Below the pieces are notes generated by a model. It searched no databases, was not told the DNA's origin, and saw only the letters and a program-made list of their open reading frames with translations. A DNA stretch of 64,000 bases from Salmonirosea aquatica (GTDB taxonomy: Bacteria > Bacteroidota > Bacteroidia > Cytophagales > Spirosomataceae): contig NZ_WHLY01000002.1 in assembly GCF_009296315.1 (NCBI RefSeq), positions 5,554,501 to 5,618,500 on the forward strand. Reading direction: 5' to 3'. Positions 1 to 12,079 of this stretch are shown here, piece after piece. Numbering within the stretch: position 1 is the first letter of the stretch; each line of letters opens with the position of its first letter. Both the position numbers and the translations under genes were made by a program.

Positions 1-216
1 CGAAAGCGTATAGTGATCATATAGACGAAGTGTGTCACCCAATAGGTAATACTGTTTTTGCGCCCGGTAGTTTCCAAATACTTCAATATCTACCCTCTGA
101 CTATCAATCTTAATGTATTCAAGCTCGTCGCCGACCCAGGCCTTTTTTATGTCGACGTTTTGGGCGGATAGGGTACCCCAAAGTAATGTCAATAGTAATG
201 TGAAAGGTACCTTCAT
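1..216 (-). CDS. Exported protein, N-terminal part only
   Basis: The ATG read leftward from 216 opens a frame that stays open to base 1, giving 72 residues before the window edge cuts it. The first 19 residues (MKVPFTLLLTLLWGTLSAQ) form a clear Sec signal peptide with an A-Q cleavage region typical of Bacteroidota. The mature part seen is charged and shows no motif I recognise. It contains two GGTACC hexamers, so it belongs to the host-like background rather than to the AT-rich island that starts just to its right. Its function is unknown. Confidence 0.6.
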   Translation of the reverse strand, partial: MKVPFTLLLTLLWGTLSAQNVDIKKAWVGDELEYIKIDSQRVDIEVFGNYRAQKQYYLLGDTLRLYDHYTLS

Positions 217-289
217 AGGATGGTGTGTAAAAGCTCGTAAGGTCTGTGTACTAAGGTGATGGGTTAACTTAGAGTGTAAATATCATTGA

Positions 290-973
290 TTATTTACATA
301 GAATTTCAAATCGGTTTTTTAAGAAATGAACAAATTTAATATCCCTATTCAAATCTCTTCCCATAGCACCTAAAAGTATTTTAATGACTTTGTCATCTTT
401 GGGAGTTGTAAAGTTTTGCTCTACTTCTTCTATTTGACTTTTTCTTTTTATTAGATACTCACTAGAAATGTTAATATATTTTTTATACATATTACAAACT
501 TCTGGGTGTGAATTAAATGGTTCTATTTTTAATAATCCATAAGCGTAAAGTCCGGGATTTACTCCGCTATTTTTTGTCATTTCTTCCATGTAATTACGGA
601 TTTTTTCACTTGTTTCTTTATCAATATAACTAGAATCTATGAAATGCAAAACCAAGATTTGAGAAGCAATTTGCTTATAAATATCCTTATGAAGATTTTC
701 TTTTAGTGATGATGCTACACTTTCGTAGGAAGAATCTATACGTTGATAATTGAATTTATCTTTATGAATTATATAGTTACCAGGTGATTTAGGAAGTCCA
801 ATAGAATCTAAAAACGATTTTTGTAATTCTTCATTTTTAATGCTTTGAATAAGGTTTAATTTATCAAAAGTATAGCTTAGTTTAAGTACTGGCTCAGGCA
901 GTGAGTCTGTCTGGCAAAAAGATTTACTTAAAGATATACTACAAATCAATACTATTGCTATTAAATAGTTCAT
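290..973 (-). CDS. Hypothetical exported protein
   Basis: This 227-residue protein starts with a hydrophobic segment of about 20 residues ending near SKSFCQ, which reads as a signal peptide; the Cys there could also be a lipidation site, but the lipobox is poor. The rest is charged, Lys/Glu/Asn-rich and mostly helical in appearance, with no catalytic motif I recognise. The gene is strikingly AT-rich compared with the flanking DNA and contains no GGTACC, so recent acquisition is likely. It stands alone, followed downstream by the partial exported gene at 1-216. The function is unknown; an extracytoplasmic location is an inference from the leader. Confidence 0.65.
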   Translation of the reverse strand: MNYLIAIVLICSISLSKSFCQTDSLPEPVLKLSYTFDKLNLIQSIKNEELQKSFLDSIGLPKSPGNYIIHKDKFNYQRIDSSYESVASSLKENLHKDIYKQIASQILVLHFIDSSYIDKETSEKIRNYMEEMTKNSGVNPGLYAYGLLKIEPFNSHPEVCNMYKKYINISSEYLIKRKSQIEEVEQNFTTPKDDKVIKILLGAMGRDLNRDIKFVHFLKNRFEILCK

Positions 974-1058
974 ATCAAAATATCGTTATCAAAGTGAATT
1001 GAATTTTATAATGAATTCAATTTTACTTAGTAAAAATACATTGATCCTTTTTCAGAAT

Positions 1059-1197
1059 CTAACCTAAATTTGCTAGAATATCAATATCGCTACTAGCAGT
1101 AAAATTATCCCGCACGACCGAACCGAACATGATACTTGCTCACTAATTCAGGTTTGAGTTGTGTGAAAATTTGCCGGATGGATTGGAAGTTGGCCAT
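1059..1197 (-). pseudogene. Broken MNT-type nucleotidyltransferase fragment
   Basis: Reading leftward from the ATG at 1197 gives a typical start of a small MNT nucleotidyltransferase (MANFQSIRQIFTQLKPELVS, then KYHV). The expected next part, FGSVVRDN followed by SSDIDIL, is found in another frame starting at 1130 and runs into a stop at 1059-1061. The GSxxR...SDIDI signature is the nucleotide- and metal-binding core of the family. A few residues are missing between KYHV and FGS, and everything after SDIDILANLG is gone. It is therefore a decayed relic with an internal deletion/frameshift and a C-terminal truncation. An intact MNT gene with its HEPN partner lies 1.8 kb away at 2629-3323. Confidence 0.7.
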
Positions 1198-1275
1198 AGC
1201 TAGGAATTTGTATTTTGCTGGTAGGTAGCTGATTGTTGGTAAAAGTACCATCTACTGTATAGGAATTCTCCGCTC

Positions 1276-1301
1276 GGCCGTTACAAACGGCCTTTTATTT
1301 T
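1276..1301 (+). terminator. Orphan rho-independent terminator
   Basis: A 7-bp stem GGCCGTT/AACGGCC with a 3-nt loop is followed by TTTTATTTT on the plus strand. No plus-strand gene lies upstream of it, so it probably remains from a lost gene of this degraded region. On the minus strand the stem has no T-run and would not serve the RelA/SpoT-domain gene. Confidence 0.5.
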
Positions 1302-1344
1302 AGGACGCAGTCTCCTTTGGAAGACTACGCCCAACGAGGGGAAA

Positions 1345-2385
1345 TTAGATAGTAATTATTTCCTTTAATGTTCTAATAAATTCCTGTGTATCAAGAAAGT
1401 AACTTGGATAAGCTTTTCGAAGTGAATCTAATGAATTTGAAGAAACAAGAACTACTTGTCTCTTGTTAGAATCTGTAATAGAAGTTTCTTCTTTCAAATA
1501 GTCTGCTGATGCCTCTTCAATAGCAGTCCTCGAATAAGTTTTAATCCTAACCTCTTTATTCTTAACATCTAAAACCACTAGATGTAAACTGCCCTGCCTT
1601 TTATCAGTTTCAATATTAGCGATTACATTACTAAAAGCTTCTAATTGATTAATTACTTGGAGATAATTTGCATCCTTTCTTACCTTTTCGAAGACTTCAT
1701 CTCTTGTATAATGTGAGTATCTTAATAGATTAGGAGTATTTTCAATGTACGCAAAGGCATTACCTACAAGTGAGAAAAAATCTAGCCACTCCATAGGGCC
1801 TTGGCTTGATTTTAATGAATGATCGATAAAGGTTCCCATTGTTTCAACAGCAGTTGCCCATGCGTGTTGTAGCCTAGTTCTAATTTGCAACTCGACCATT
1901 AAATTATCATAGTTTGGATTGATTGAGTTCTTGTACTTATAAACTATATGAAAGCATCTATACCCAGAATCTTTTGGATTTTGAATATAATCTTTCTCAT
2001 TCTTTATTTCATGTTGTAATCCAGCTTTTCTGTAAAGTGTTACGATAGTATTTACATCATTCATAGTAGGTAAAATTGCTCGAATTCCCCCAATATCTTG
2101 CATCTGTGAAAGTCTCATATTCTGAAATCTTTCTAGTTTTAAAATTATTGATGGCGTTCTTTTTAACCGCTGTGACACCAAATACTCAATGCCAGTTTTA
2201 TTGAGTTTTTTTCTTAGTGTTGCCTGAAATGTATTTATTGGATAAGCGTGGCATGAACGAAAATTGCCAAGCGCTTCTAAGGCTTGGTCCCGCTGTAATT
2301 GCGTAGATGATGGATTAGCCAGAATATTTCCCGCATCGTCAATTTGTCTCTTTGAAAATATTAAAATGTTGTCTTTTAGAGCCAT
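1345..2385 (-). CDS. RelA/SpoT-domain (p)ppGpp synthetase-like protein
   Basis: The 346-residue protein carries a RelA/SpoT nucleotidyltransferase domain at about residues 60-220. Visible motifs are the ATP-binding stretch QRLKRTPSIILKLER (R-x2-K-x3-SI-x2-K), DIGGIRAI, a Tyr/Arg/His cluster in GYRCFHIVYK, and VELQIRTRLQHAWA with the conserved Glu and QIRT. There is no HD hydrolase domain and no ACT/TGS region, so it is a synthetase-only type, with an uncharacterised C-terminal 120 residues. Proteins of this architecture are chromosomal alarmone synthetases or toxic small alarmone synthetases used in toxin-antitoxin and phage-defence systems. The gene is AT-rich, lacks GGTACC and sits between MNT/HEPN remnants, which favours an accessory or defence role. 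No obvious antitoxin gene abuts it. Confidence 0.8.
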   Translation of the reverse strand: MALKDNILIFSKRQIDDAGNILANPSSTQLQRDQALEALGNFRSCHAYPINTFQATLRKKLNKTGIEYLVSQRLKRTPSIILKLERFQNMRLSQMQDIGGIRAILPTMNDVNTIVTLYRKAGLQHEIKNEKDYIQNPKDSGYRCFHIVYKYKNSINPNYDNLMVELQIRTRLQHAWATAVETMGTFIDHSLKSSQGPMEWLDFFSLVGNAFAYIENTPNLLRYSHYTRDEVFEKVRKDANYLQVINQLEAFSNVIANIETDKRQGSLHLVVLDVKNKEVRIKTYSRTAIEEASADYLKEETSITDSNKRQVVLVSSNSLDSLRKAYPSYFLDTQEFIRTLKEIITI

Positions 2386-2468
2386 AGTGTTTATTATTGA
2401 CTACACTTTAAGCATAAGCTGTGTCGCATAGCCCTTTCAATTACAAATAAAAAAAGCAAATTACTAAC

Positions 2469-2582
2469 AACCTACCTCCCCCCAAACGCCTTACTCAACC
2501 GAAGGTACCCCTCCGCATTGGGATGCAACCCATCCGAAAACAGCGCCTCGTCGAGGGTACCATCGGCTTTCAGAAGCACCTT
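2469..2582 (-). pseudogene. Displaced copy of the SGNH hydrolase 3' end
   Basis: These 114 bases align without gaps to 3422-3535, the last 37 codons and stop of the SGNH hydrolase, with about 10 mismatches (roughly 91% identity). Read leftward the copy keeps the frame, including the block V motif DGLHPN, the ending SKAFGGR and a TAG stop, with substitutions such as I to L and K to E. Similarity stops abruptly at both ends. The fragment has two GGTACC sites, although the flanking island has none. It is either the end of a lost paralogue or the original gene end displaced by insertion of the HEPN/MNT module. Confidence 0.75.
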
Positions 2583-2628
2583 TTATAACCATCGCACTAC
2601 GCCGTTTCCCACAGCACCTACCCAAACC

Positions 2629-3018
2629 TCAAATTTCAATCTGTTTTCGTAATGCTAGTAAGAATTGCCTAACCTCTTCAAGCAGTGGCAAAATTTCATT
2701 TTCCGTAAACTCCATAAAATCATCATAGTCACTTTCGTGACGTTTGTTCATTAGGTTTGAATATAAATTGCTGTATTCTCTATTTAGGATTCCAGTTTTG
2801 ATATACTGCTTAAAGAATTCTGTTCTGACCCCGTTGTGAGTCGAAGCTTCAATTTCGTCCTTTGCCAGGAGAGCCGTCACAGCGTAAAAGCTACAGTAGT
2901 AAAGCCTATTGGCAGCACCGCCCCAGAAGCCATTTTGCATTAAAAATTCGGCTTCATCAAATGTGGTTGCTGATTTTTCAAGACGATAACGTATCAAATC
3001 TTGTTTATGATAGCTCAT
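2629..3018 (-). CDS. HEPN-domain protein (toxin-antitoxin partner)
   Basis: This 129-residue all-helical protein has the layout of the HEPN/UPF0332 family: an A-x-x-R-x-Y-Y segment (AANRLYYCSFYAV) at about 35-47, a second helix around HNGVRTEFF, and the RHESDYDDF ending helix. In HEPN/MNT modules the HEPN protein is usually the RNase toxin and the MNT partner the AMP-transferring antitoxin. I do not see a clean R-x4-6-H catalytic motif, so it may be a non-nucleolytic variant. Its ATG overlaps the stop of the upstream MNT gene by 4 bp (ATGA), implying translational coupling. The pair is AT-rich and free of GGTACC. Confidence 0.8.
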   Translation of the reverse strand: MSYHKQDLIRYRLEKSATTFDEAEFLMQNGFWGGAANRLYYCSFYAVTALLAKDEIEASTHNGVRTEFFKQYIKTGILNREYSNLYSNLMNKRHESDYDDFMEFTENEILPLLEEVRQFLLALRKQIEI

Positions 3019-3323
3019 AACTCTACCCCGTCTTTTGAAATATTGTTGTAGAGCGGGGTTACCTGGTAGTCAGACCATTTGTCCTGAGAAAAAATAATAG
3101 AACTAATAACCTCTTCTGCTTCCAATTCTGTTTCAAGTAGTACTTCCCTGATCCTTTTTTTCAGGTACTCATCTGCCTTACGGGAAGTCAGAATCAGGAA
3201 ATCCCAATCCGAGGTTGGTATATAATCTTTACGGGCCCTTGATCCAAACAATATAATCCTTGCTTTCGGATCAATTGTCCTGACTGATACCTTCACCCTT
3301 TGTGTCAAATCTGAGTGATTCAT
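3015..3323 (-). CDS. MNT nucleotidyltransferase (HEPN/MNT antitoxin)
   Basis: The 102-residue protein is a minimal nucleotidyltransferase of the Pol-beta superfamily. Its signature GSRARKDYIPTSDWD fits GS-x10-D-x-D, giving the two metal-binding aspartates, and the Arg after GS is conserved. MntA-like antitoxins of this type AMPylate or sequester the HEPN partner. It is the first gene of a two-gene operon and overlaps the HEPN start by 4 bp. The cassette lies just downstream of the SGNH hydrolase stop at 3425, between that stop and the displaced copy of the hydrolase end at 2469-2582. Confidence 0.85.
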   Translation of the reverse strand: MNHSDLTQRVKVSVRTIDPKARIILFGSRARKDYIPTSDWDFLILTSRKADEYLKKRIREVLLETELEAEEVISSIIFSQDKWSDYQVTPLYNNISKDGVEL

Positions 3324-3424
3324 AAGGAATTATATAAAATTCAATTTCTAATGATTCTAATCCGTGGGCTGTGTATCTAAGCCCCATATCAATCCGCCAA
3401 ACCCTAAAGCAATATACATAAAAC

Positions 3425-5202
3425 CTACCGCCCTCCAAACGCCTTACTCAGCCGAAGGTACCCCTTCGCATTGGGATGCAGGCCATCCGAAAACAGCGCC
3501 TCGTCGATGGTTCCATCCGCTTTCAGAAGTACCTTGCCGGCGTCGAGGTACCCTACGCCCATTTCCTTCGTCAAAGTAGCCAATTTTTTGTTCAGTTCCA
3601 CGACCCGTTGCTCTTGCTTGCGGCGGGGGTACACGCCTACCATCGTGAGGGTCGCCGTGGGTTGGCGCTGGCGGATGGCCTCGATGAGTTGCCGCCAGCC
3701 GGTCAGGATTTCCTCGTCCGTATTGAGCTGGAAATTGTTGGTGCCGATCATCACGTAAATCTGCTTCGCGGCGTAGCCATCCAGCTCGCCGTGGTACACG
3801 CGCCAGAGTACGTTCTCGATGCGGTCCCAGCCGTAGCCGAGGTTGCGGGTATTCTGCGGTTCGAGCACGGCGTTCCACGATTCCGCGCCGGCAGCGCGGG
3901 GACCTTTGGGGAGTCCGCCCCAAAAATGCGTGATCGAATTGCCGATCATCAGCACGTTCGGTGGTGTTTCGCGGTTCATGCGCAGGATTTCGCGGTGCCG
4001 GGCGTCCCAGTCATAGTTGCCGGGTTCGCGCAGCTGAATCACCGGGCGGGTGGTGCTGAGGGTACCCTGCGGCTCGCGCAGGATGGTGCGCAGGTGCTTT
4101 TCGTAGCCCTCGGCGTAGCGCATCATGCCCAGGTCGTTGGGGTGGGTACCGTCCACCATCGTCTCGATGCCCTGGTTAAAATCCGCTTTGGGAATCAGGT
4201 ACAGTTCCTTGACGCCCTCGGCTTGTAGCTGGACAAAGGCCGCTCGGAGTACCTCGTTGGGTTCCGTGAAGCGTTTGCGGCTAGTGGGGTTGATGGCCTC
4301 GTCGGTATAGCCCGCGTGTTCGGCCAGCACAATCGGCGTGGCCGGATGCTTTTGCCGCAAAGTACGTACCGCGTACAGAATCCGGCTTTTGACGGTGTCG
4401 AGCGGGTACTCGTCCTGATTCACCAGATTGGGCAGGCAGTCCAGCACAAACACCTTGGCGTCGATCTCGTTGACCACGCTCAGTACCTCCTGTTCCAGTC
4501 GCCCGTTGCCCGAGAAACCGAGGTTGATCAGCGGGTCGTCGAGCTTGCGCGAAAGAATCGTGGGCCACGCCATGCCGGGGCGGGATGCGCAGGCACCCTG
4601 CATGATGGAGGTACCATACAACACAAGTGGCTTGTCGGGGCGGACGGGCAGGGGCGTAAACAGGGTACCCTCGGGTACCCCCACTTCCAGCCACTTCACC
4701 GAATTGTAGAGGGTAGGTAAAGTCGGTACTCGCGGCCCATTTTGTGGTAGGCGTCGTTGGGCTCGAGGTTGCGGAAGTAGTACTCGATGGTATCGCCGAA
4801 GGCGTACTTCCCGGTACACCAGCGCCAGTCGCCATCGCTCGAAATCGCGTACAGATCCACGCCGCTGACGCCCGTGGCGGGCATGTGGGGCAGCGCCTGC
4901 CGGCCCTCCACCACGTACCGTACCTTGATCTGATCAGAATTGGCCCGGAACCGTAGCATCAGCCCGGCCGTTTGCCGCGACAGATTCCAGACCGGCGCGC
5001 GCACGGTACCCTCGGCGCGGGCGGGCAGGCGGTCGTAGAAATTTTTCACGTCCTGGGGCCAGGCCTGTCCTTCCAACACCGGAAAGGCAGCCTCAGTGGG
5101 ATTCCACCATAGAAAGTTGGGGGTAGGAGGGGCGGTCGTTTGCGCCTGCACGGCCAGGGCAAAAAACAAAAACGGAAAAAGCAGGGTACGGCGGAGTTTC
5201 AT
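3425..5202 (-). CDS. Two-domain SGNH hydrolase/esterase, frameshifted
   Basis: The gene reads from the ATG at 5202 (signal peptide ending VQAQ) through an N-terminal beta-sandwich domain. It then needs a +1 correction near 4711-4713, where the frame ending in YRLYLP must join a second frame beginning LYNSVKWLEVG. One extra C in the CCC run (minus strand) would restore a 592-residue protein. After the join come two SGNH domains: GTSIMQG with DGTHPND from about residue 193, and MIGNSITHFW with GTNNF and DGLHPNAKGY from about 418, so both catalytic sets look complete. The likely role is secreted deacetylation or esterase action on carbohydrates. As written it ends after 168 residues. A slipped base, a sequencing error and true pseudogenisation are all possible. 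Confidence 0.8.
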
Positions 5203-5277
5203 AAGAAGGCAAAATCTTGGATGGAATACCTACCCAAGAAGCCCTGAAACCTCCTTTTCTAATCTAGCCCGTGGTTT

Positions 5278-6195
5278 TTAACTCTTTTCCTGCACATGGC
5301 GCGCAATAACTTCCTGCACGCGGGTCCAGCGGATGCCGGGGTAGCGATCGTTGTCCAGCGAGGCCAATTTGGCGCGTCCGCTGAGCATGTTGCGCAGGTA
5401 CTGCATGCCCTGCCAGGGCGGAAACACCTCGTCTTGAGCAGGCATCAGCGTTTTGGTCACTTTGATCATCACATCCAGGGTACCTAAGCCACCTACCCGG
5501 AATAGTTTGTAGGCATCTCCGGTCGCCTGACTCGCGGCTTCCTGCAAACCCCGGGGGCTGAGTACATCCCCGGCAATACGCAAATCGCGGGGCGTGGTCG
5601 GGTCGAGCGCGGCGGAAGCGGTGTACTCGGCGGTGTTGGCGATGGTGGTGAAGTCCATGAGTTGGTCGGCATTACCCCAGAACACGATGCGTTTGAACGG
5701 ATACAGCACTACCGGAGCCTGCCCGGTGAGCAGGTCGGCAAACATGCCGTTGAGGATGGAGGTACCCTGAATCGGTGCCTTGTCGAGGCGTTCGCGGAAT
5801 TCGCGGCGCAGGTCGAGGTTGCGGTTGGTACCTTCGGGCGTTTGAGTATAATCGATGCAGTAGTCCGACGGAATGAACCGGGGTACCCCGGCTTCGATCG
5901 CCGCATTCAGTAGCTTCGTTTGGGTATTCACAATCACCTCCCGCAGGCCCGAGAGCGCTGAAACGATACACGTACCCCCCTGACAAGCGTGCGTTAATTG
6001 GGGCAGGCTGTCAAAATCGACTTCGGCGATGGTCGCTCCCAGTTGCCGCAGCGCGTCGATTTCGTCCCGCTTGCTCGCGGGACGCACCAACACCCGCACG
6101 GGGGTACCTTTTTTAAGGAGAATACGGGCGATGCGGCCGCCCAGGTCGCCAGTGGCTCCGGCCAGGATGATGAGGGTTTCGTCGGGTTTGGGCAT
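5278..6195 (-). CDS. NmrA-type NAD(P)-binding protein
   Basis: The 305-residue protein begins with a Rossmann beta-alpha-beta unit with GATGDLGGRIA near residues 13-23 and an Arg-rich stretch after beta-2 (VLVRPASKR), which favours NADPH. The following pattern (VDFDSLPQL, then a SALSGL segment and GVPRFIPSDY) matches the atypical SDR/isoflavone-reductase-like NmrA family. Members act as NADPH-dependent reductases or redox sensors, and the substrate cannot be deduced. There is no signal peptide, so it is cytoplasmic. It stands alone, 75 bp upstream of the SGNH hydrolase on the same strand, and has normal host-like GGTACC content. Confidence 0.8.
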   Translation of the reverse strand: MPKPDETLIILAGATGDLGGRIARILLKKGTPVRVLVRPASKRDEIDALRQLGATIAEVDFDSLPQLTHACQGGTCIVSALSGLREVIVNTQTKLLNAAIEAGVPRFIPSDYCIDYTQTPEGTNRNLDLRREFRERLDKAPIQGTSILNGMFADLLTGQAPVVLYPFKRIVFWGNADQLMDFTTIANTAEYTASAALDPTTPRDLRIAGDVLSPRGLQEAASQATGDAYKLFRVGGLGTLDVMIKVTKTLMPAQDEVFPPWQGMQYLRNMLSGRAKLASLDNDRYPGIRWTRVQEVIARHVQEKS

Positions 6196-6320
6196 TGAAA
6201 TGAGGTTGATTGGTGAGTGGTCTCATTCCAACTCCCTGCCGTGCGATAATGTTGGAGAACCTGTCAAAGTAATTGGGAAATGCGCCAACCTACGTGTGCT
6301 TTTTAATCAACTCATTGACA

Positions 6321-6911
6321 TCAAGGCATTTGTAAACCTCTGAAATAACCCGTCAGGCCGAACAGGATCAGGAACGCGGCTAAAAGGCCAAGCATCATAA
6401 TCCCATAAGACTGCTGTTTGGGTGAGATCCCCAATACTTTTGTGGACATTTTTCTGGTGTGAAGTGCGGCCAGATGTCCGAAAAAGGATAGAATACTCAG
6501 ACCATAGTACGGAATAAAAAACAGGTTCAAGGGGAAACTATTGAGACCCGCCGCTCCGAAATAGATGTTCGTATCGAGATGCAGCGCGTGTCGCCCCACC
6601 ATGACCGCGCTCAGGTGGACTACGAAGAAAAACGCCAGGTACAGGCCCGTCCAGTGTTGCAGTTTTTCAAAAAATCCCATGGCCGTCTTTCGGTCAGCCA
6701 GAAACAGCCTGGTACCCGAATAGATTTGCATCCCAATGGCGGCGAGCAAAACGGTTTCGACCAACACGTTGCGATAGGAGGGACGAAGTGCATCCATCAG
6801 GCGGATATGCGCTTCTGGCCCCCACAGGCTGGCGAGGTGATTGACCAGGTGAGCGACGACATACAGGGCTATGAAAATACCCGAAATACGATGGATGGTC
6901 TTTAACCGCAC
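6321..6911 (-). CDS. Multi-pass membrane protein, possible b-type cytochrome
   Basis: I place the start at the GTG at 6911, just before RLKTIHRISGIF; a longer frame to 7154 would run deep into the neighbouring outer-membrane gene and has no membrane-protein character. The resulting 196 residues have about five hydrophobic helices. Histidines lie in or near several of them (TIHRISG, AHLVNHL, LQHWTGLY, VVHLSAVM, FFGHLAALH), spaced like heme ligands in succinate dehydrogenase or other diheme b-type membrane anchors. No flavoprotein or iron-sulfur partner is nearby, so an electron-transfer role is only an inference. The start codon is uncertain because no clear ribosome-binding site is visible. 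Confidence 0.65.
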   Translation of the reverse strand: MRLKTIHRISGIFIALYVVAHLVNHLASLWGPEAHIRLMDALRPSYRNVLVETVLLAAIGMQIYSGTRLFLADRKTAMGFFEKLQHWTGLYLAFFFVVHLSAVMVGRHALHLDTNIYFGAAGLNSFPLNLFFIPYYGLSILSFFGHLAALHTRKMSTKVLGISPKQQSYGIMMLGLLAAFLILFGLTGYFRGLQMP

Positions 6912-6972
6912 AGCAGGATGGGGCAGGGGACAGTAAGTCGGTTGAAAGATACCCCAAAGTAAATAAATTCGC

Positions 6973-7710
6973 TTAAAACCGCACCGTGGCCCCCAGCGCC
7001 GCGTAATTGATCCAGGTAAAGTTGTATACCGACTCCACATCGGCCCCGCCTTCCACCACGCGGTATCCCGCCCGTAATCCCCAACGCGGCCCGAGCTGGT
7101 AGCCAAGCCCCAGAAAGACATCTTCCGCGCGTCCCGGTCCGCCCGCCAGGGCATCGGCCTCCATAAGCGCCTGCCACCGTTCCGAGATACGGAATTCAGC
7201 CAGCAGATTGAGCAGCGGCACGAAGCCTACGTTACTGAAATGCGTGTCCTGCGTGTCAGACATGAGGCGCACGTCGGCATCGCGGATTTTGGCGGTGAAA
7301 CCTACCCCCAGCCGGAAGCGATTGGTTCGTACCAGCCTGTAGCGGTAGGTCAGGCGGTAGGAATTGAACTGGTACAGGGCAGTCACGGGTTGCCCAGCGG
7401 CAAAGGCCTGTCCGTTAAAATTGACTACCCGGTCGAATGTTCCTTCGTAGGTAGCCGTCAGGGGCGCGTAGAGGGCCGTGATGGTGTGGCGGTCGTTGAA
7501 GGTGTAGCCCAGGCGCAGGCGGTAGTAAGCGAGGGGCGTTATGTCGAATTCTTTGCCCAAATCGAAGCGGGTGCCGCTCGTGTTAGGAATGCTGATTTTG
7601 TTATAAGGGGTACCAAAGACTATGCCCGCCTCCGCATCAATCCAGAATTGGGCGTAGGTAGAAGTGATTGGTAGTAAAGCGAATAGGAGCGCGTAACGAA
7701 TGATTTTCAT
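6973..7710 (-). CDS. Outer-membrane beta-barrel protein
   Basis: The 245-residue protein has a signal peptide ending in STYAQ. A series of alternating amphipathic strands (for example YYRLRLGYTF, YRLTYRYRL, RFRLGVGFTA) follows and ends with an aromatic residue (GATVRF*), the usual C-terminal signature of Bam-assembled barrels. Its length suits an 8-10 stranded barrel. The role is unknown. It is encoded just upstream of the membrane protein at 6321-6911, with 61 bp between them, so the two may be co-transcribed. Confidence 0.75.
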   Translation of the reverse strand: MKIIRYALLFALLPITSTYAQFWIDAEAGIVFGTPYNKISIPNTSGTRFDLGKEFDITPLAYYRLRLGYTFNDRHTITALYAPLTATYEGTFDRVVNFNGQAFAAGQPVTALYQFNSYRLTYRYRLVRTNRFRLGVGFTAKIRDADVRLMSDTQDTHFSNVGFVPLLNLLAEFRISERWQALMEADALAGGPGRAEDVFLGLGYQLGPRWGLRAGYRVVEGGADVESVYNFTWINYAALGATVRF

Positions 7711-7793
7711 GGAGGATGCTTTTCGTTTTTGCTTTTTGTGCTTAATGAAAAAGCGTACTCCACAAAAAGCAGACCACTACTGCTCTTTAAATC

Positions 7794-8198
7794 CTACAAT
7801 TCGCCCGTATTGATACTGTGTTGAATGAGAAAGCAGGCGGCGATGGAAAATAAAGCAATCAACCCGGTGAAGATTAGCTGAAATATAAACCCTTTACCGG
7901 AATCGAGCTGTATGTCGGCAGGATTCTGCTTGTTGTAATACAGGGGTAGCTGCTGACCAATCTGGTAGGGCATGCCTGCCACGGTAATCCGCAGGCCGAC
8001 GCTTTCACCCGTTTCCACAATGGTATACTGGATGATGGCCGAATTCAAACTCTTGCCCGTACTACCCGACACTTCCCGGATGGTACCCATGACGTGGGTA
8101 CCCTGTTCTTTCATCCGCTTCACCGCTCGAATTCTGGACAGGGTTATGACCAAGGGTACGAAACCCAGAATCACGATGACGGTGTAGGCAATAAACAT
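7794..8198 (-). CDS. DUF3592 membrane protein
   Basis: The 134 residues contain an N-terminal transmembrane helix (about 3-21), a soluble beta-rich middle with a G-x-I-x-E-V start and the stretch LPLYYNKQNPADI, and a C-terminal transmembrane helix (about 104-126). The Y-Y-N-K-x-N-P-x-D core is the hallmark of DUF3592, a small bacterial membrane family of unknown function. It has four GGTACC-type contexts in or near it, like the host background. Neighbouring genes give no clue to function. Confidence 0.75.
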   Translation of the reverse strand: MFIAYTVIVILGFVPLVITLSRIRAVKRMKEQGTHVMGTIREVSGSTGKSLNSAIIQYTIVETGESVGLRITVAGMPYQIGQQLPLYYNKQNPADIQLDSGKGFIFQLIFTGLIALFSIAACFLIQHSINTGEL

Positions 8199-8308
8199 AA
8201 GAATCGAGGATGGCTTGCGGTAATCTGTTCCAGGTTTTCAGGGAGATAAACGTTAATGATACGCCAAATAATCGAGTAAGCAATCCCAAAACTTAGGAGT
8301 ACAGAAGT

Positions 8309-8533
8309 TTAGCCATTTACTCCCCTCAGTTTTCTGAAATCAAATTTCCACCCAATGACCGCCGATCCATAGGCCGAAATAGCGTTGGCATCCGTCAGGT
8401 TGGTACCTCCCAGTCGTAGCAGACTTTTCAAAGCCGGAATCCAGTAGCCTAGCTGAACTTTGTTTCCATACGCTTTATTCGGCGTAATGTTTTTGGGAAT
8501 ACTGACTACGTTGAAGTGATAGAAAACGGTTAG
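8309..8533 (-). pseudogene. C-terminal remnant of a TonB-dependent receptor
   Basis: A 74-codon open stretch ends at TAA 8309-8311. Its segment LGYWIPALKSLLRLGGTN, then LTDANAISAYGSA, matches the C-terminus of the intact receptor at 9305-12019. At DNA level 8354-8455 aligns without gaps to 9344-9445 (offset 990) with about seven mismatches, near 93% identity. Upstream of the block the fragment still reads like a receptor strand, but a TGA at 8534-8536 closes it; downstream its tail differs from the intact gene. It is therefore a decayed paralogue end or a displaced gene end, separated from the intact gene by the AT-rich pair at 8546-9233. Confidence 0.75.
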
Positions 8534-8545
8534 TCAAAGATCAGG

Positions 8546-8701
8546 CTACAACAGAAGCTGTGGCTGGTCTTTTTTGAATTTCTTTTTCAATGCCAACTTT
8601 CTCTTGGCAATAAACTCACTTAATTCTTTTTCCCTTTCTGGGGTTAGCGGCTTGCTGTCAATGACAAAATCAATGCCATCGGGTTCTTTGATATATCCCA
8701 T
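8546..8701 (-). CDS. Small basic protein, partner of GNAT-like gene
   Basis: This is a 51-residue ORF starting at ATG 8701, only 4 bp after the stop of the upstream gene at 8706. The sequence starts MGYIKEPDGIDFVIDSKPLT, continues with an acidic helix (PEREKELSEFI) and ends in a strongly basic helix rich in Lys. The short spacing and shared AT-rich composition indicate a two-gene operon with the GNAT-like protein. Small paired proteins of this sort are often antitoxins or toxin chaperones, but that role is inferred from gene arrangement, not from a recognised motif. Confidence 0.6.
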   Translation of the reverse strand: MGYIKEPDGIDFVIDSKPLTPEREKELSEFIAKRKLALKKKFKKDQPQLLL

Positions 8702-8705
8702 AATG

Positions 8706-9233
8706 CTAAGGCTTAAAATATTTTAGAACTAGTTTTTCGGCAGCTTTTGAATCGATAATCATCAAACCTCCCCCAATATGTAAGGCGCCGAGCGTGTTTG
8801 TATAATGTTCTATCAATTTCGTTTTTGATTCAAATGATACAAATCCTTCTCCACCCCTCTGAAAGGATAATTTACAAGCAAAAGCTACGAGATTACCAGG
8901 CACCCCTTCATATATTTTACCGTTGCCAAGGTTAAAAGGGGCGCTTTCCAAGAGAAACATATAGACGTGGTCGGGTTTGATGGTCAAACTAATCAGTCCC
9001 TGTATAATGTCGAGATTATCGACGATAGTCAGCTTATAGATTTCCCGGTCTAGTCTTCCAAACTCATATTTCCAATCGAACAACCATCCGGATTTCTTTG
9101 TGATGTTTTTCAAATCACTTTTTGTAAGAAGCGATACTTCAGTTCTGAAACTATCGCCACTGATCCGGTTAAGGATCGAATCGGTAAGTCTATCGATATT
9201 GATTTCAAATAAATAGGAGTTTGGTTTGGCCAT
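8706..9233 (-). CDS. GNAT-like acetyltransferase-fold protein
   Basis: I choose the ATG at 9233 (MAKPNSYLF); a TTG two codons upstream is less likely. In the 175-residue protein the C-terminal half (residues about 100-175) resembles a GNAT core: a strand with GNLVAFACKLSF, then a GGEGFVSFESK segment, a helix KLIEHYTNTLGA, and a final strand-helix LMIIDSKAAEKLVLKYF. Such proteins acetylate small molecules, proteins or charged tRNA. It is the first gene of a pair with the 51-residue basic protein. The module is AT-rich, has no GGTACC and lies between a receptor-gene end and its diverged copy, so horizontal gain is likely. A toxin role is speculative. Confidence 0.6.
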   Translation of the reverse strand: MAKPNSYLFEINIDRLTDSILNRISGDSFRTEVSLLTKSDLKNITKKSGWLFDWKYEFGRLDREIYKLTIVDNLDIIQGLISLTIKPDHVYMFLLESAPFNLGNGKIYEGVPGNLVAFACKLSFQRGGEGFVSFESKTKLIEHYTNTLGALHIGGGLMIIDSKAAEKLVLKYFKP

Positions 9234-9304
9234 ATTCAAAGGTACAAAATTCCATAGCTACGTGCCAGACATAAAATTCCCAAGTTATATTTTATAATCC
9301 AACG

Positions 9305-12019
9305 TTAAATCCCCACCAGCCACCCCACGTATATTACCCGCCCGATGGCCGCCGATCCATAGGCCGAAATGGCGTTGGCATTCGTCAGGTTGGTACCTCC
9401 CAGCCGCAGCAGACTTTTCAAAGCCGGAATCCGGTAGCCTAGCTGGGCGTCTAGGGTACCGTAGGCCGGGATGAAACCTTCGTCGAAGGGCATAAAGAAA
9501 GTGTAGCCCGTTTGGTAGCGATAGTTGAGGCTGTATATGAATTGTTTATAGGTACCATCAACCCCCACATTCACTTTGTGGGTAGGGGTGTTGAAGCCCA
9601 GGATCAGGCCGGGTACGTCGGCTTCGTTGATCTGCGACCAGGTGTAGTTGCTGTACAGATGGAGTTTTTTGGGCGTGTAGAAATCCGCGGCCAGCACCAC
9701 GCCCTGGGTCTGAACGGTCTGTTCAGCGTTGGCCCACACCTGAATCAGGCGGCCGCGGGTACGGTCGGTGGCGGGCTTGGTAAAATCACCGGATGCGGGA
9801 AAGGGGGTACCTTGCACAGCTAAGCCATCCTCCCGGCCGTAAAAACGGAGGGTACCTATGAAATCCTGATAGCGAGAGCGGTAATAGCTGGCATCAACGT
9901 AAAACCCTTTGAATAGTTGCGCCTTGTAGCCAATCTCCCAGGTATTGGCCTGCTCGGGCGACAGGTTTTTGATGGTTTGCGGTTTCAGATAATCAGGATT
10001 AGGCTGGCCATTAGGAAGCGTAGAAACGGCGTTGAGGCCCTGAAACCCTTTGTCGATATTTCCCATCACCAGTAGTGAGCCAAAATCGAGGTAGATGTAC
10101 TGGTCGAGTTGGGCGGGCTGGCGGTAAGCCTGGGCGTAGCTCAGCCTGATGTTATGCTCGCGGTTCTCGCCCAACGAAAGTACCCCCGACGCCCGGGGGG
10201 AGAAGCGGGTACCGAAGTTGCGGAAATTATCGACCCGTCCGGCAAAGGCGAGGCGCAGGCGATTATTGAGCAAATCCTGCCGGATTTGTCCGTATGCGCC
10301 ACCCTCGTAGTTGACGATCCGGTCGCGCAGTTGGACGTCGTTGGTACCCGGCGCGATGGGCGATTTATCGCCATCGGCCAGCAAGGTACCCGCCGAGCGC
10401 AGGCGGTGGGTACGGAACGATGCCCCGGCGACCACATGCGTCGAAGGGGTAAGTTGCCATTCTTTCTGGGTACTCAGATCGTAAAAACGTGCCGTGTTGG
10501 CAAAGGCCGCCCCGCGTACCGTCCGCGCACCGTTGATTTCGATGGTACCCACCCCGCTGACAATCTGCTGACGCAGATCATTGAACGCTTTACTACCGGC
10601 AGGCAACAGTACGCCGGAGGCAATCTGCGAAGCCAAAGCCTGCGCTTCAGCGATGCCCAATCCGCCTGGTACGGCTTGGCTGAGTTGGTAGGGCTGCGGG
10701 ACGTTACCGTCGGGATTGGCGGCGTAAATGCCGTCGAGGGTAGCGTTAGCGGGCAGACCGTTATCGCGGGCGGCTCCAAAAATTTGATTCCAAAGCGCAA
10801 AGTAATTCTGGCCGTAGGTCGGGTACTGCCCGCCGCCCGGTTTGGCGGGTGCCATCACGCTGCCCATGATGCCGTTGCCCAATGAACTCAGGTCATAGGC
10901 TTTGCCGCCATAATCATACACCGTATAGGCGCGTACGAACCAGTCTTTGCCCCGCAATTCGGCGCGGTGGAGGTCGTACTGCATGGCGCGCTGGGCGTAA
11001 CGACTGCTGCTCTGGAAAATGCCATTACTGAACGTATAGCGGTATTCGTACACGAACCTGGTACGTTCGTTGATTTTATAATGCAGGGCGGGATTGATCC
11101 GGATATTCCCGGCTTTGTAGCTATCGCCCCAAATCGTGAACAAATCACCCGGCGCTTTGGCCCATAGCAAATCGCGCTCGGCGTAACCGGGGGCGTAGAG
11201 GCGGTAGGGTTGATTGTTGTTTTTGGCGGTCAGTACCGTGTTGGTTACAGTGGTACCGATGTCGCCAAAACGGTTGACGGCATTCCAGCCCAGGGGCGAA
11301 CCCTCGGCGTTATTGGCCGGATCGGCGCCGGCCAGTCCACCCGAAGTGACGCGCTGGATGGCGGCGTCGCTGGATGCGATGAATTCATCGGCCGAGAAAT
11401 AATTGGCGTTGATCTTGAAAGCCAGTTTGTCGCCAATCGTTTTCGCGTAGCGTACCTGAAAATCTATCAAGTGACGGCTACCACCCCGCAGCGAGGCCGT
11501 CAGACCGGGCGTTTGGAAAGGGTCTTTCGAATGCATCAGGAGTACCCCATTGAGGGCATTGGAGCCGTACAGGGCCGAGTTGGCCCCGTGGACCACGTCC
11601 ACGCTTTCCAGATCCAAATCCGAGATGCCCACCCAGTTGCCGTAGTAGAGCGAAGCGGTAGGGGAGGTGACGTCGACATAATCGGCGAGTTGCACCACGC
11701 GCTCGGCTTTGTTGCTATTGAAGCCGCGCGTGCTGAAACTGGAAATGAGCCAGCTCGACTGGCTCACGTCGATGCCCTTGTATTTGGCCAAGCCGGAAAT
11801 CAAGTCTGTGGCCGCGTTGCGCTGTAATTCCACGGCACCGATATGCTCCACCGTGACGGGGCTTTCCATCACGCGCTCGGCGGTGCGGGAGGCGGCGACG
11901 GTAATCTGATTGAGGGTACCTCCATCCCGACTCGTTGCCGTAGTGTCGGTTTGGGCGTACGATAAAAAAGAAAGAAAAAGAAAAAGGACGGATAGGGTAC
12001 CGGCGTGACGAAAATGCAT
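9305..12019 (-). CDS. TonB-dependent outer-membrane receptor
   Basis: I take ATG 12019 as start because it directly precedes the signal peptide (MHFRHAGTLSVLF, ending SYAQ); a 16-codon longer version from 12067 is possible. The 904-residue protein has a plug domain at about 45-165, with a TonB-box-like TLNQITVAASR, the STRGF segment, and VHGANSALYGSNALNGV typical of receptor plugs, followed by a 22-strand-type barrel. There is no N-terminal carboxypeptidase-like domain, so it resembles siderophore or vitamin receptors more than SusC. No SusD partner is adjacent. A gene for a secreted GH43-like protein diverges upstream. Its 3' end is repeated at 8354-8455. Confidence 0.9.
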   Translation of the reverse strand: MHFRHAGTLSVLFLFLSFLSYAQTDTTATSRDGGTLNQITVAASRTAERVMESPVTVEHIGAVELQRNAATDLISGLAKYKGIDVSQSSWLISSFSTRGFNSNKAERVVQLADYVDVTSPTASLYYGNWVGISDLDLESVDVVHGANSALYGSNALNGVLLMHSKDPFQTPGLTASLRGGSRHLIDFQVRYAKTIGDKLAFKINANYFSADEFIASSDAAIQRVTSGGLAGADPANNAEGSPLGWNAVNRFGDIGTTVTNTVLTAKNNNQPYRLYAPGYAERDLLWAKAPGDLFTIWGDSYKAGNIRINPALHYKINERTRFVYEYRYTFSNGIFQSSSRYAQRAMQYDLHRAELRGKDWFVRAYTVYDYGGKAYDLSSLGNGIMGSVMAPAKPGGGQYPTYGQNYFALWNQIFGAARDNGLPANATLDGIYAANPDGNVPQPYQLSQAVPGGLGIAEAQALASQIASGVLLPAGSKAFNDLRQQIVSGVGTIEINGARTVRGAAFANTARFYDLSTQKEWQLTPSTHVVAGASFRTHRLRSAGTLLADGDKSPIAPGTNDVQLRDRIVNYEGGAYGQIRQDLLNNRLRLAFAGRVDNFRNFGTRFSPRASGVLSLGENREHNIRLSYAQAYRQPAQLDQYIYLDFGSLLVMGNIDKGFQGLNAVSTLPNGQPNPDYLKPQTIKNLSPEQANTWEIGYKAQLFKGFYVDASYYRSRYQDFIGTLRFYGREDGLAVQGTPFPASGDFTKPATDRTRGRLIQVWANAEQTVQTQGVVLAADFYTPKKLHLYSNYTWSQINEADVPGLILGFNTPTHKVNVGVDGTYKQFIYSLNYRYQTGYTFFMPFDEGFIPAYGTLDAQLGYRIPALKSLLRLGGTNLTNANAISAYGSAAIGRVIYVGWLVGI

Positions 12020-12043
12020 AGAATTGGGCTTTGATCCAGGGGC

Positions 12044-12079
12044 CAAAGATAGATACTGTTCCTTCATTTAGTACTTTTG
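12044..12079. promoter_or_regulatory. Divergent promoter -7 elements
   Basis: Between the divergent receptor and GH43-like genes lie two matches to the Bacteroidota -7 consensus TAnnTTTG: TATCTTTG on the minus strand at 12044-12051 (25 bp before the receptor start) and TACTTTTG on the plus strand at 12072-12079 (26 bp before the ATG at 12105). Clear -33 elements are not visible at the expected distance, so these are plausible but unproven promoters. Confidence 0.4.

Follow-up and report, generated by a model that had tools for sequence, protein, structure and literature searches.

How does a pair of small genes come to be enclosed by the 3' end of an ordinary gene on one side and a diverged copy of that end on the other? 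The question is raised by a 64-kb stretch of contig NZ_WHLY01000002.1 of Salmonirosea aquatica (genome 7.07 Mb, four contigs), the whole of which is called the window here. On its minus strand a GDSL/SGNH esterase gene is followed by the genes for an MNT nucleotidyltransferase and a HEPN protein, a putative toxin–antitoxin (TA) pair, and then by 46 bp, a second esterase end and a RelA/SpoT-domain gene. The best explanation, to which the sequence comparisons below lead us to give a probability of about 0.6, is that DNA of a relative was captured by recombination anchored in the esterase 3' end, a process that would require no dedicated integrase or transposase. By their SGNH genes, the nearest named relatives are Persicitalea (Spirosomataceae, Bacteroidota), Arundinibacter and Telluribacter.

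Two esterase ends around a HEPN/MNT pair

Realignment confirmed the preliminary description of 2469–2582 and 3422–3535 as gap-free direct repeats of 114 bp, 91% identical. They extend to 2453–2582 and 3406–3535 (130 bp, 88.5%), with a BLAST E-value of 3e-44 in the window, where the next best match has 0.26, and these two sites are the only matches at E <= 0.001 in the whole 7.07-Mb genome; the repeat pair is far beyond chance. Read on the minus strand, both copies encode 36 codons and a stop, KVLLKADGT(I/L)DEALFSDGLHPNA(K/E)GYLRLSKAFGGR*, and the second copy does keep the frame and the stop of the SGNH end, as had been claimed. Its homology breaks off sharply at 2582, where the next upstream codon in the copy frame is TAA, and on the other side continues 19 bp beyond the stop. 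The MNT and HEPN genes, which share a 4-bp overlap, are the only open reading frames (ORFs) of at least 60 codons between the repeats, and the repeats thus bracket this pair alone, as first reported. No integrase or transposase was found with Pfam among ORFs of at least 60 codons in the bracketed stretch. The G+C content of the pair is about 0.40, that of the esterase about 0.6.

The window pair is a class II HEPN/MNT pair (PF05168/PF01909) and a putative TA system. Its MNT protein carries the GSX10DXD motif (GSRARKDYIPTSDWD) by which, in the portion of PMC7641770 available, this class is defined; the TA nature of class II is said there still to need validation. A motif scan found no R-X4-6-H in the HEPN protein, which therefore lacks the RX4HXY of type VII HepT/MntA (class I). 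So far as that source goes, the pair resembles class II systems in both families, in GSX10DXD, in a HEPN protein without RX4HXY and in the position of MNT upstream of HEPN. The pair itself is not new; what deserves attention is its bracketing by gene ends.

The SGNH 3' end in relatives

Sixty-five SGNH stretches with up to 10 kb on each side were compared, several of them with partial genes and two from one genome. A second C-terminal SGNH copy occurs in two of the 65, the window locus and that of G242, a Telluribacter-type genome, and is partial in both; the 64 stretches from other genera contain no MNT/HEPN at SGNH. It is most improbable that the second end is what remains of an esterase paralogue in tandem, a complete gene at 2469 that decayed before the toxin pair was inserted. 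Partial gene copies can arise from paralogue decay, and tandem paralogues exist elsewhere in these genomes, but a complete second SGNH gene, which had been named as the sign of a simple paralogue remnant, is present in none of the 65 stretches. Furthermore, the homology is cut sharply at 2582, the residual frame is intact with mostly silent changes, and a like layout is found at unrelated genes.

In G242 the aligned repeat at the SGNH gene is 465 bases long, against 129 in the window's genome (G000). The G242 gene is separated from its 465-bp end copy by genes for an S8 peptidase and a DUF4440 protein; beyond the copy come an unnamed gene, an AbiJ-type gene and then a gene that is also found after the SGNH region in G014. 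In G014, likewise of Telluribacter type, the place of the G242 inserts is taken by a weakly TIR-like gene and an ATPase-like one. By comparison of these loci, the SGNH 3' end is a repeated landing site. Sliding identity between the SGNH genes of G242 and G014 gave a mosaic with no clear breakpoint.

Islands at tRNA genes regenerate the end of their target gene, and the MNT/HEPN stretch, with the repeats as attL and attR, might by analogy be the remnant of a site-specific, gene-end-restoring element or have been moved by an integrase that acts in trans. A restored gene end with a displaced fragment behind the insert, as described for such islands in the accessible part of PMC4383910, accords with this, as do the inserts that the SGNH 3' end holds elsewhere: S8 peptidase and DUF4440 genes followed by AbiJ in G242, and the TIR-like and ATPase-like genes in G014. 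We nevertheless regard it as very unlikely, given that no integrase ORF lies between the window's repeats and that repeats of this kind measure about 50–620 bp at eleven different target genes, with varying end points and with the two lengths just given at SGNH itself. The preliminary description had likened the arrangement to what some integrative elements do, and for site-specific elements the data do not support this likeness, since the stretch between the window's repeats has no integrase ORF and neither repeat length nor target is fixed.

Recurrence at other genes

By self-comparison, repeats bracket the pair in six of 44 HEPN loci and in two of 322 control windows (Fisher P = 5e-5), or in five of 43 with the window locus left out (P = 3e-4). 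The controls were SGNH neighbourhoods of diverse Bacteroidota, not matched in composition, and any bracketing repeat was counted. Among the six bracketed loci, L040 and L044 have repeats that are not gene ends, and those of G010, G012 and G014 are a single orthologous case in which a Peptidase_M24 gene has MNT/HEPN at its 3' end. A search for such junctions elsewhere, which had been advised, thus found them at the M24 gene in three genera. There the copy begins 2–3 bp past the HEPN stop; it lies at a contig edge in G012 and is decayed in G014, with a second segment beyond the stop. The M24 gene has a single end and no pair in its 1.5-kb flanks in G000, G016 and G023, and decayed end copies stand behind other cargo in G021 (a xylose-isomerase-like gene) and G017.

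A second gene-end bracket occurs in the window itself, at 8348–9445, 5 kb from the first. It holds a GNAT-like gene and a 51-aa partner beside a TonB-dependent receptor gene, and Arundinibacter agrees with the gene-attached receptor tail. The GNAT-like protein has no Pfam or PADLOC match; among the Foldseek matches listed are acetyltransferases and related enzymes, including the toxins AtaT, TacT3 and KacT at about 1e-4. The gene is present in 79 of 222 Spirosomataceae genomes at E <= 1e-6, and a short ORF stands directly behind it at 24 of the 27 loci listed (of 30 scanned). With its short partner it forms a widespread two-gene unit, which we regard as a candidate TA family.

Five of the 30 GNAT-like loci are bracketed by the 3' regions of five different genes (P = 6e-5 against controls): the TonB receptor in the window, M24 in G221, an FtsX-type permease in G233, a DUF7133 gene in G032 and a GntP permease in G016. 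Without the window locus the count is four of 29 (P = 5e-4). At the M24 gene in the genus of G221, all 29 other fetched loci have a single end and no GNAT-like unit, and G221 alone has both (1.5-kb flanks).

Multi-copy repeats of intergenic appearance surround the GNAT-like unit in L220, L221, L236, L239 and L246, all of which were left out of the gene-end count. Folded stretches from L221, L236 and L246 give hairpins. Integron attC sites were considered and rejected: the stretches from these three loci have no GTTRRRY/RYYYAAC boxes, and at gathering score Rfam gave no match for those from L221 and L246.

A survey by coordinate was made of 100 stretches of 20 kb (2.0 Mb) from the window's genome and five relatives, which were compared with themselves and sorted by eye. 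The shares were 800 kb for G000, 700 kb for G016, 140 kb each for G010 and G023, 120 kb for G242 and 100 kb for G014; one of the G000 stretches was chosen to cover the M24 gene of that genome, and the smaller samples drew only on contigs already met. The survey contains five gene-3'-end copies with cargo (Table 1), three of which bracket pairs with recognised toxin domains, and, by eye, no comparable 5'-end copies. Against a strict 3' rule stands L061, a locus of the window's genome fetched for its MNT/HEPN pair, in which a PIN/DUF2281 pair lies between copies (214–379 and 1363–1533) of a DUF2200 gene's 5' portion.

One survey case concerns a gene of G016 that we take to be RlmI-like. In five of eight genomes (G010, G000, G242, G014 and G023) this gene has a single end, no pair, and the same next gene about 25–120 bp on; in G016 that usual neighbour sits 3.1 kb beyond the displaced copy. 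Of the remaining three, G031 has no match, in G012 the gene is only a fragment at the end of a contig, and in G003 it has a single end but not the usual neighbour. The uninterrupted single end that should be seen without a cassette was thus found in relatives both for M24 and for the RlmI-like gene.

Other repeats met in the survey were set aside as tandem paralogues (L206, L280, L302, L322, L327, L338, L345), within-gene repeats (L216, L319, L320, L325, L333, L354), repeats that lie between long genes (L288, L358, and in L290 a single pair), an array of repeats where a contig starts (L339), intergenic repeats (L301, L307, L314, L340), two oppositely oriented genes that match over 40 bp (L310) and, again in L290, an upstream stretch with an ambiguous match to a gene end (77 bp, 74%). 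In 1.28 Mb of SGNH and other loci, the repeat pairs listed are those in L061, L087, L089, L090, L117 and L144.

Synonymous differences between gene end and copy

Fourteen gene-end/copy cases were tested for an excess of synonymous differences, under a neutral null and under a stricter one in which the gene branch changes silently only and the copy drifts freely; P-values are uncorrected for 14 tests. At the window's SGNH gene eight of ten coding differences are synonymous, where the neutral expectation is 0.29 (P = 0.001 neutral, 0.027 stricter), and at the SGNH gene of G242 the figure is 50 of 75 (P = 1e-13 and 8e-6). The excess is also seen for M24 in G010 (5 of 6; P = 0.004 and 0.035), for a SusD gene of the window's genome (73 of 105; P = 4e-20 and 5e-9) and for the RlmI-like gene in G016 (8 of 9; P = 1.5e-4 and 0.005), that is, in five of the 14 cases. 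Since the two SGNH ends differ mainly synonymously, each seems to have been part of a functioning gene while they diverged. Where the signal is clear, the copies probably descend from separate lineages of a functional gene, of which one was brought in from outside. The idea of an incoming module that displaces the old gene end, put forward in the preliminary description, is strengthened in this respect by the synonymous excess at SGNH and by the recurrence at other genes.

The M24 gene of G010 gives a second indication. Five relatives, not mutually independent, match the gene-attached end five times and the displaced copy 16 times. In its 132-bp repeat the two copies do not differ over the first 72 bases, and the six differences are all confined to the last 60, a clustering that would be expected for a crossover inside the repeat.

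Capture or duplication

In the proposed capture, a fragment from a related bacterium would have carried that bacterium's esterase 3' end followed by the MNT/HEPN pair, and would have been taken up by recombination with the matching 3' end of the esterase already present. The far side, which lacks homology, would have become linked to a site within the 3' end of the resident gene itself, through homology-facilitated illegitimate recombination (HFIR) or through a single crossover of a re-circularised fragment. The esterase would thereby keep a complete, partly imported end, and a second end would be pushed behind the cassette. The recurrence with other pairs at other genes suggests arrival on a relative's gene end and not a dedicated transposon, and the lack of an integrase between the window's repeats, the varying lengths and targets and the orthologue-like differences fit such gene-end-anchored capture. 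A precedent for the joint is given in the available text of PMC3240628: after conjugation in Escherichia coli, 56 of 60 clones gave a polymerase chain reaction product of a lacZ-end duplication, 109–950 bp long in the 14 that were sequenced, and these duplications are ascribed there to a single crossover of a shortened circular molecule.

Direct repeats should allow RecA-dependent deletion of the cassette between them. An addictive TA cargo would kill or arrest the deletants, which would explain why TA pairs are found between such repeats; in the part of PMC6354349 available, the inactivation of plasmid TA systems raised deletion between direct copies of 228 nt about 50-fold. What we infer here are the donor, the mechanism of joining, the toxicity and the stabilisation by addiction. 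As a wider and much more tentative proposal, TA cassettes in Spirosomataceae might lead an integrase-free life, with a borrowed gene 3' end as sole homology arm, many target genes, a host gene left complete, and persistence through addiction that counter-selects RecA deletion. If this were true, gene-end copies would be scars recording past transfers between species.

Several results weigh against capture of an imported end. Counted as independent gene-end targets, the HEPN brackets number two (P = 0.07), and with the window locus out and orthologues taken once a single HEPN target is left (P = 0.30 against controls). The empty SGNH site is seen in other genera only. Seven relatives, again not mutually independent, match the gene-attached SGNH end in 25 site-comparisons and the displaced copy in 12, so that the displaced copy is not favoured as the original and the gene-attached end does not look alien; either of the two SGNH ends may be the newcomer. 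For the RlmI-like gene, six relatives with a full end match the gene-attached end 27 times and the copy nine times (a seventh, with a partial gene, was left out of the tally at 1 against 3), and here too the attached end is not alien-looking. The SGNH case alone has P = 0.027 under the stricter null, uncorrected for the 14 tests. The extent of the copies is not uniform: six of 16 aligned cases run past the stop codon, by 3–69 bp, four end 1–4 bases from its last base and six stop 16–120 bp short of it. With ten of 16 not passing the stop, the duplicated piece is 3'-terminal or nearly so, and not always a whole gene end; the free copies may since have decayed. Repeat identity does not differ significantly between TA and non-TA cargo (medians 90.5, n = 11, and 81.3, n = 5; P = 0.11), and no donor sequence was found.

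The main rival is strict target duplication, in which a staggered, transposition-like event duplicated 50–600 bp of the resident gene, the copies being identical at first and diverging later. In 11 measured cases the junction lies 2–90 bp behind the cassette genes, which is tidier than random joining suggests and favours this alternative. Nine of the 14 synonymous tests, moreover, are not significant under the stricter null (TonB, M24 in G221, FtsX, DUF7133, GntP, M24 in G021, M24 in G017, PQQ and the GNAT gene of G016), and their differences are compatible with drift of a free copy; at SGNH and the RlmI-like gene the free copy is also the more derived one. Yet the synonymous excess in the other five cases exceeds what a single drifting copy should produce, the length duplicated is not constant across cases, and the window's bracketed stretch is without a transposase (terminal inverted repeats were not sought case by case). 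On balance we judge target duplication rather unlikely, and prefer capture of a relative's gene end.

Comparison with known systems

Insertion with long target duplication has been proposed for restriction-modification systems (Nobusato et al. 2000, as cited in PMC3031569, PMC3874152 and PMC4978471). As those sources outline it, that mode shares with the present cases a small addictive unit without mobility genes and variable direct repeats of about 100 bp. The cargo here is instead TA-like, the repeats are mostly 3'-terminal pieces of genes, and the clearest copies differ in the manner of two functional genes, which points to an imported end and not to a duplicated target.

One homologous anchor, one illegitimate joint and an old 3' end pushed behind the module are features shared with HFIR (PMC3240628) and with effector–immunity displacement in type VI secretion systems (T6SS; PMC5361080), as far as the accessible text of these papers describes them. 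Classical HFIR usually deletes recipient DNA, whereas here a stretch is duplicated; the T6SS case, in the text available, swaps the effector's own end together with an immunity gene, whereas here an unrelated ordinary gene is the anchor. Islands at tRNA genes, in the part of PMC4383910 available, likewise have an intact gene beside the insert and a displaced end fragment on its far side, but the present cases have no integrase between the repeats and no fixed crossover core, and their target gene varies. By analogy, then, the insertion mode resembles the long-target-duplication insertion of restriction-modification systems and the T6SS end displacement, and what appears new is the TA cargo and the use of ordinary genes as anchors. 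No description of TA pairs bracketed by gene 3' ends is among the literature matches listed, which comprise titles and abstract openings and leave most subscription literature outside.

How small chromosomal TA pairs without mobility genes move and are retained has long been debatable. With a recognisable scar, a gene 3' end repeated behind the pair, insertions become countable and can be ranked by the divergence of their ends; donors become traceable by matching ends, and the protection of the repeats by addiction becomes checkable. It also calls for caution in annotation, since an ORF for the C-terminus of a gene product, when it follows a toxin pair, may be such a scar instead of a gene.

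Features of the window and minor observations

Table 1. Features of the two gene-end brackets in the window, and the gene-3'-end copies with cargo found in the survey
Feature	Position	Strand	Basis or remark
GDSL/SGNH esterase (GxDLY + Lipase_GDSL_3 + Lipase_GDSL_2)	3425–5202	-	Pfam; reads as overlapping ORFs 4696–5202 and 3425–4819
Repeat copy A, gene-attached 3' end (36 codons, stop, 19 bp 3' flank)	3406–3535	-	Sequence comparison
MNT nucleotidyltransferase, putative antitoxin	3015–3323	-	PF01909 4.7e-10; PADLOC PDC-S09 7.7e-16; GSX10DXD
HEPN protein, putative toxin, PF05168 type without RX4-6H	2629–3018	-	PF05168 5.3e-14; motif scan
Right-hand junction, HEPN stop to displaced copy, 46 bp, outside aligned repeat	2583–2628	.	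Sequence comparison
Repeat copy B, displaced 3' end, frame and stop intact, no gene upstream	2453–2582	-	Sequence comparison
RelA/SpoT-domain gene beyond displaced copy	1345–2385	-	PF04607 6.8e-21; PADLOC candidate defence PDC-S33 1.9e-121
TonB-dependent receptor gene	9305–12067	-	Plug domain
Receptor near-3'-end stretch, repeat copy A	9338–9445	-	108 bp, 92.6%
GNAT-fold protein of TA-like unit	8706–9227 (to 9239 with TTG start)	-	AlphaFold2 pLDDT 91; Foldseek
51-aa partner ORF of GNAT-like gene	8546–8701	-	Conserved position
Displaced receptor copy B, ending 33 bp short of stop position	8348–8455	-	108 bp, 92.6%
Survey: SusD gene (window's genome)			Lipoprotein-like cargo
Survey: PQQ dehydrogenase gene (G016)			MntA/HepT cargo
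Survey: RlmI-like gene (G016)			HI1420/Gp49 pair cargo
Survey: GNAT acetyltransferase gene (G016)			ParE and small partner as cargo
Survey: CarbopepD_reg-domain gene			S9-like hydrolase cargo

The reading frame of the esterase is broken by one nucleotide near 4711, in a C run within the overlap 4696–4819, and is continuous in relatives by tblastn; the break marks either a real pseudogene or else an assembly error. The RelA/SpoT-domain gene (1345–2385), directly behind the displaced end, is AT-rich like the MNT/HEPN pair and is possibly a second cassette. Rfam gave no match in positions 1–12000 of the window.

Two further repeat arrangements were met among the surveyed and fetched loci. In L340 (17173–18014; G010, of Arundinibacter type) an 83-bp intergenic direct repeat (84%) brackets two overlapping small genes of 92 and 72 aa, and in L117, from Pedobacter planticolens, two direct-repeat pairs (9236–9361 and 10768–10982) surround the stop side of a minus-strand gene. 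The hexamer GGTACC occurs 136 times in the 64-kb window, often in coding sequence, where about 16 occurrences would be expected for a random 6-mer at equal base frequencies.

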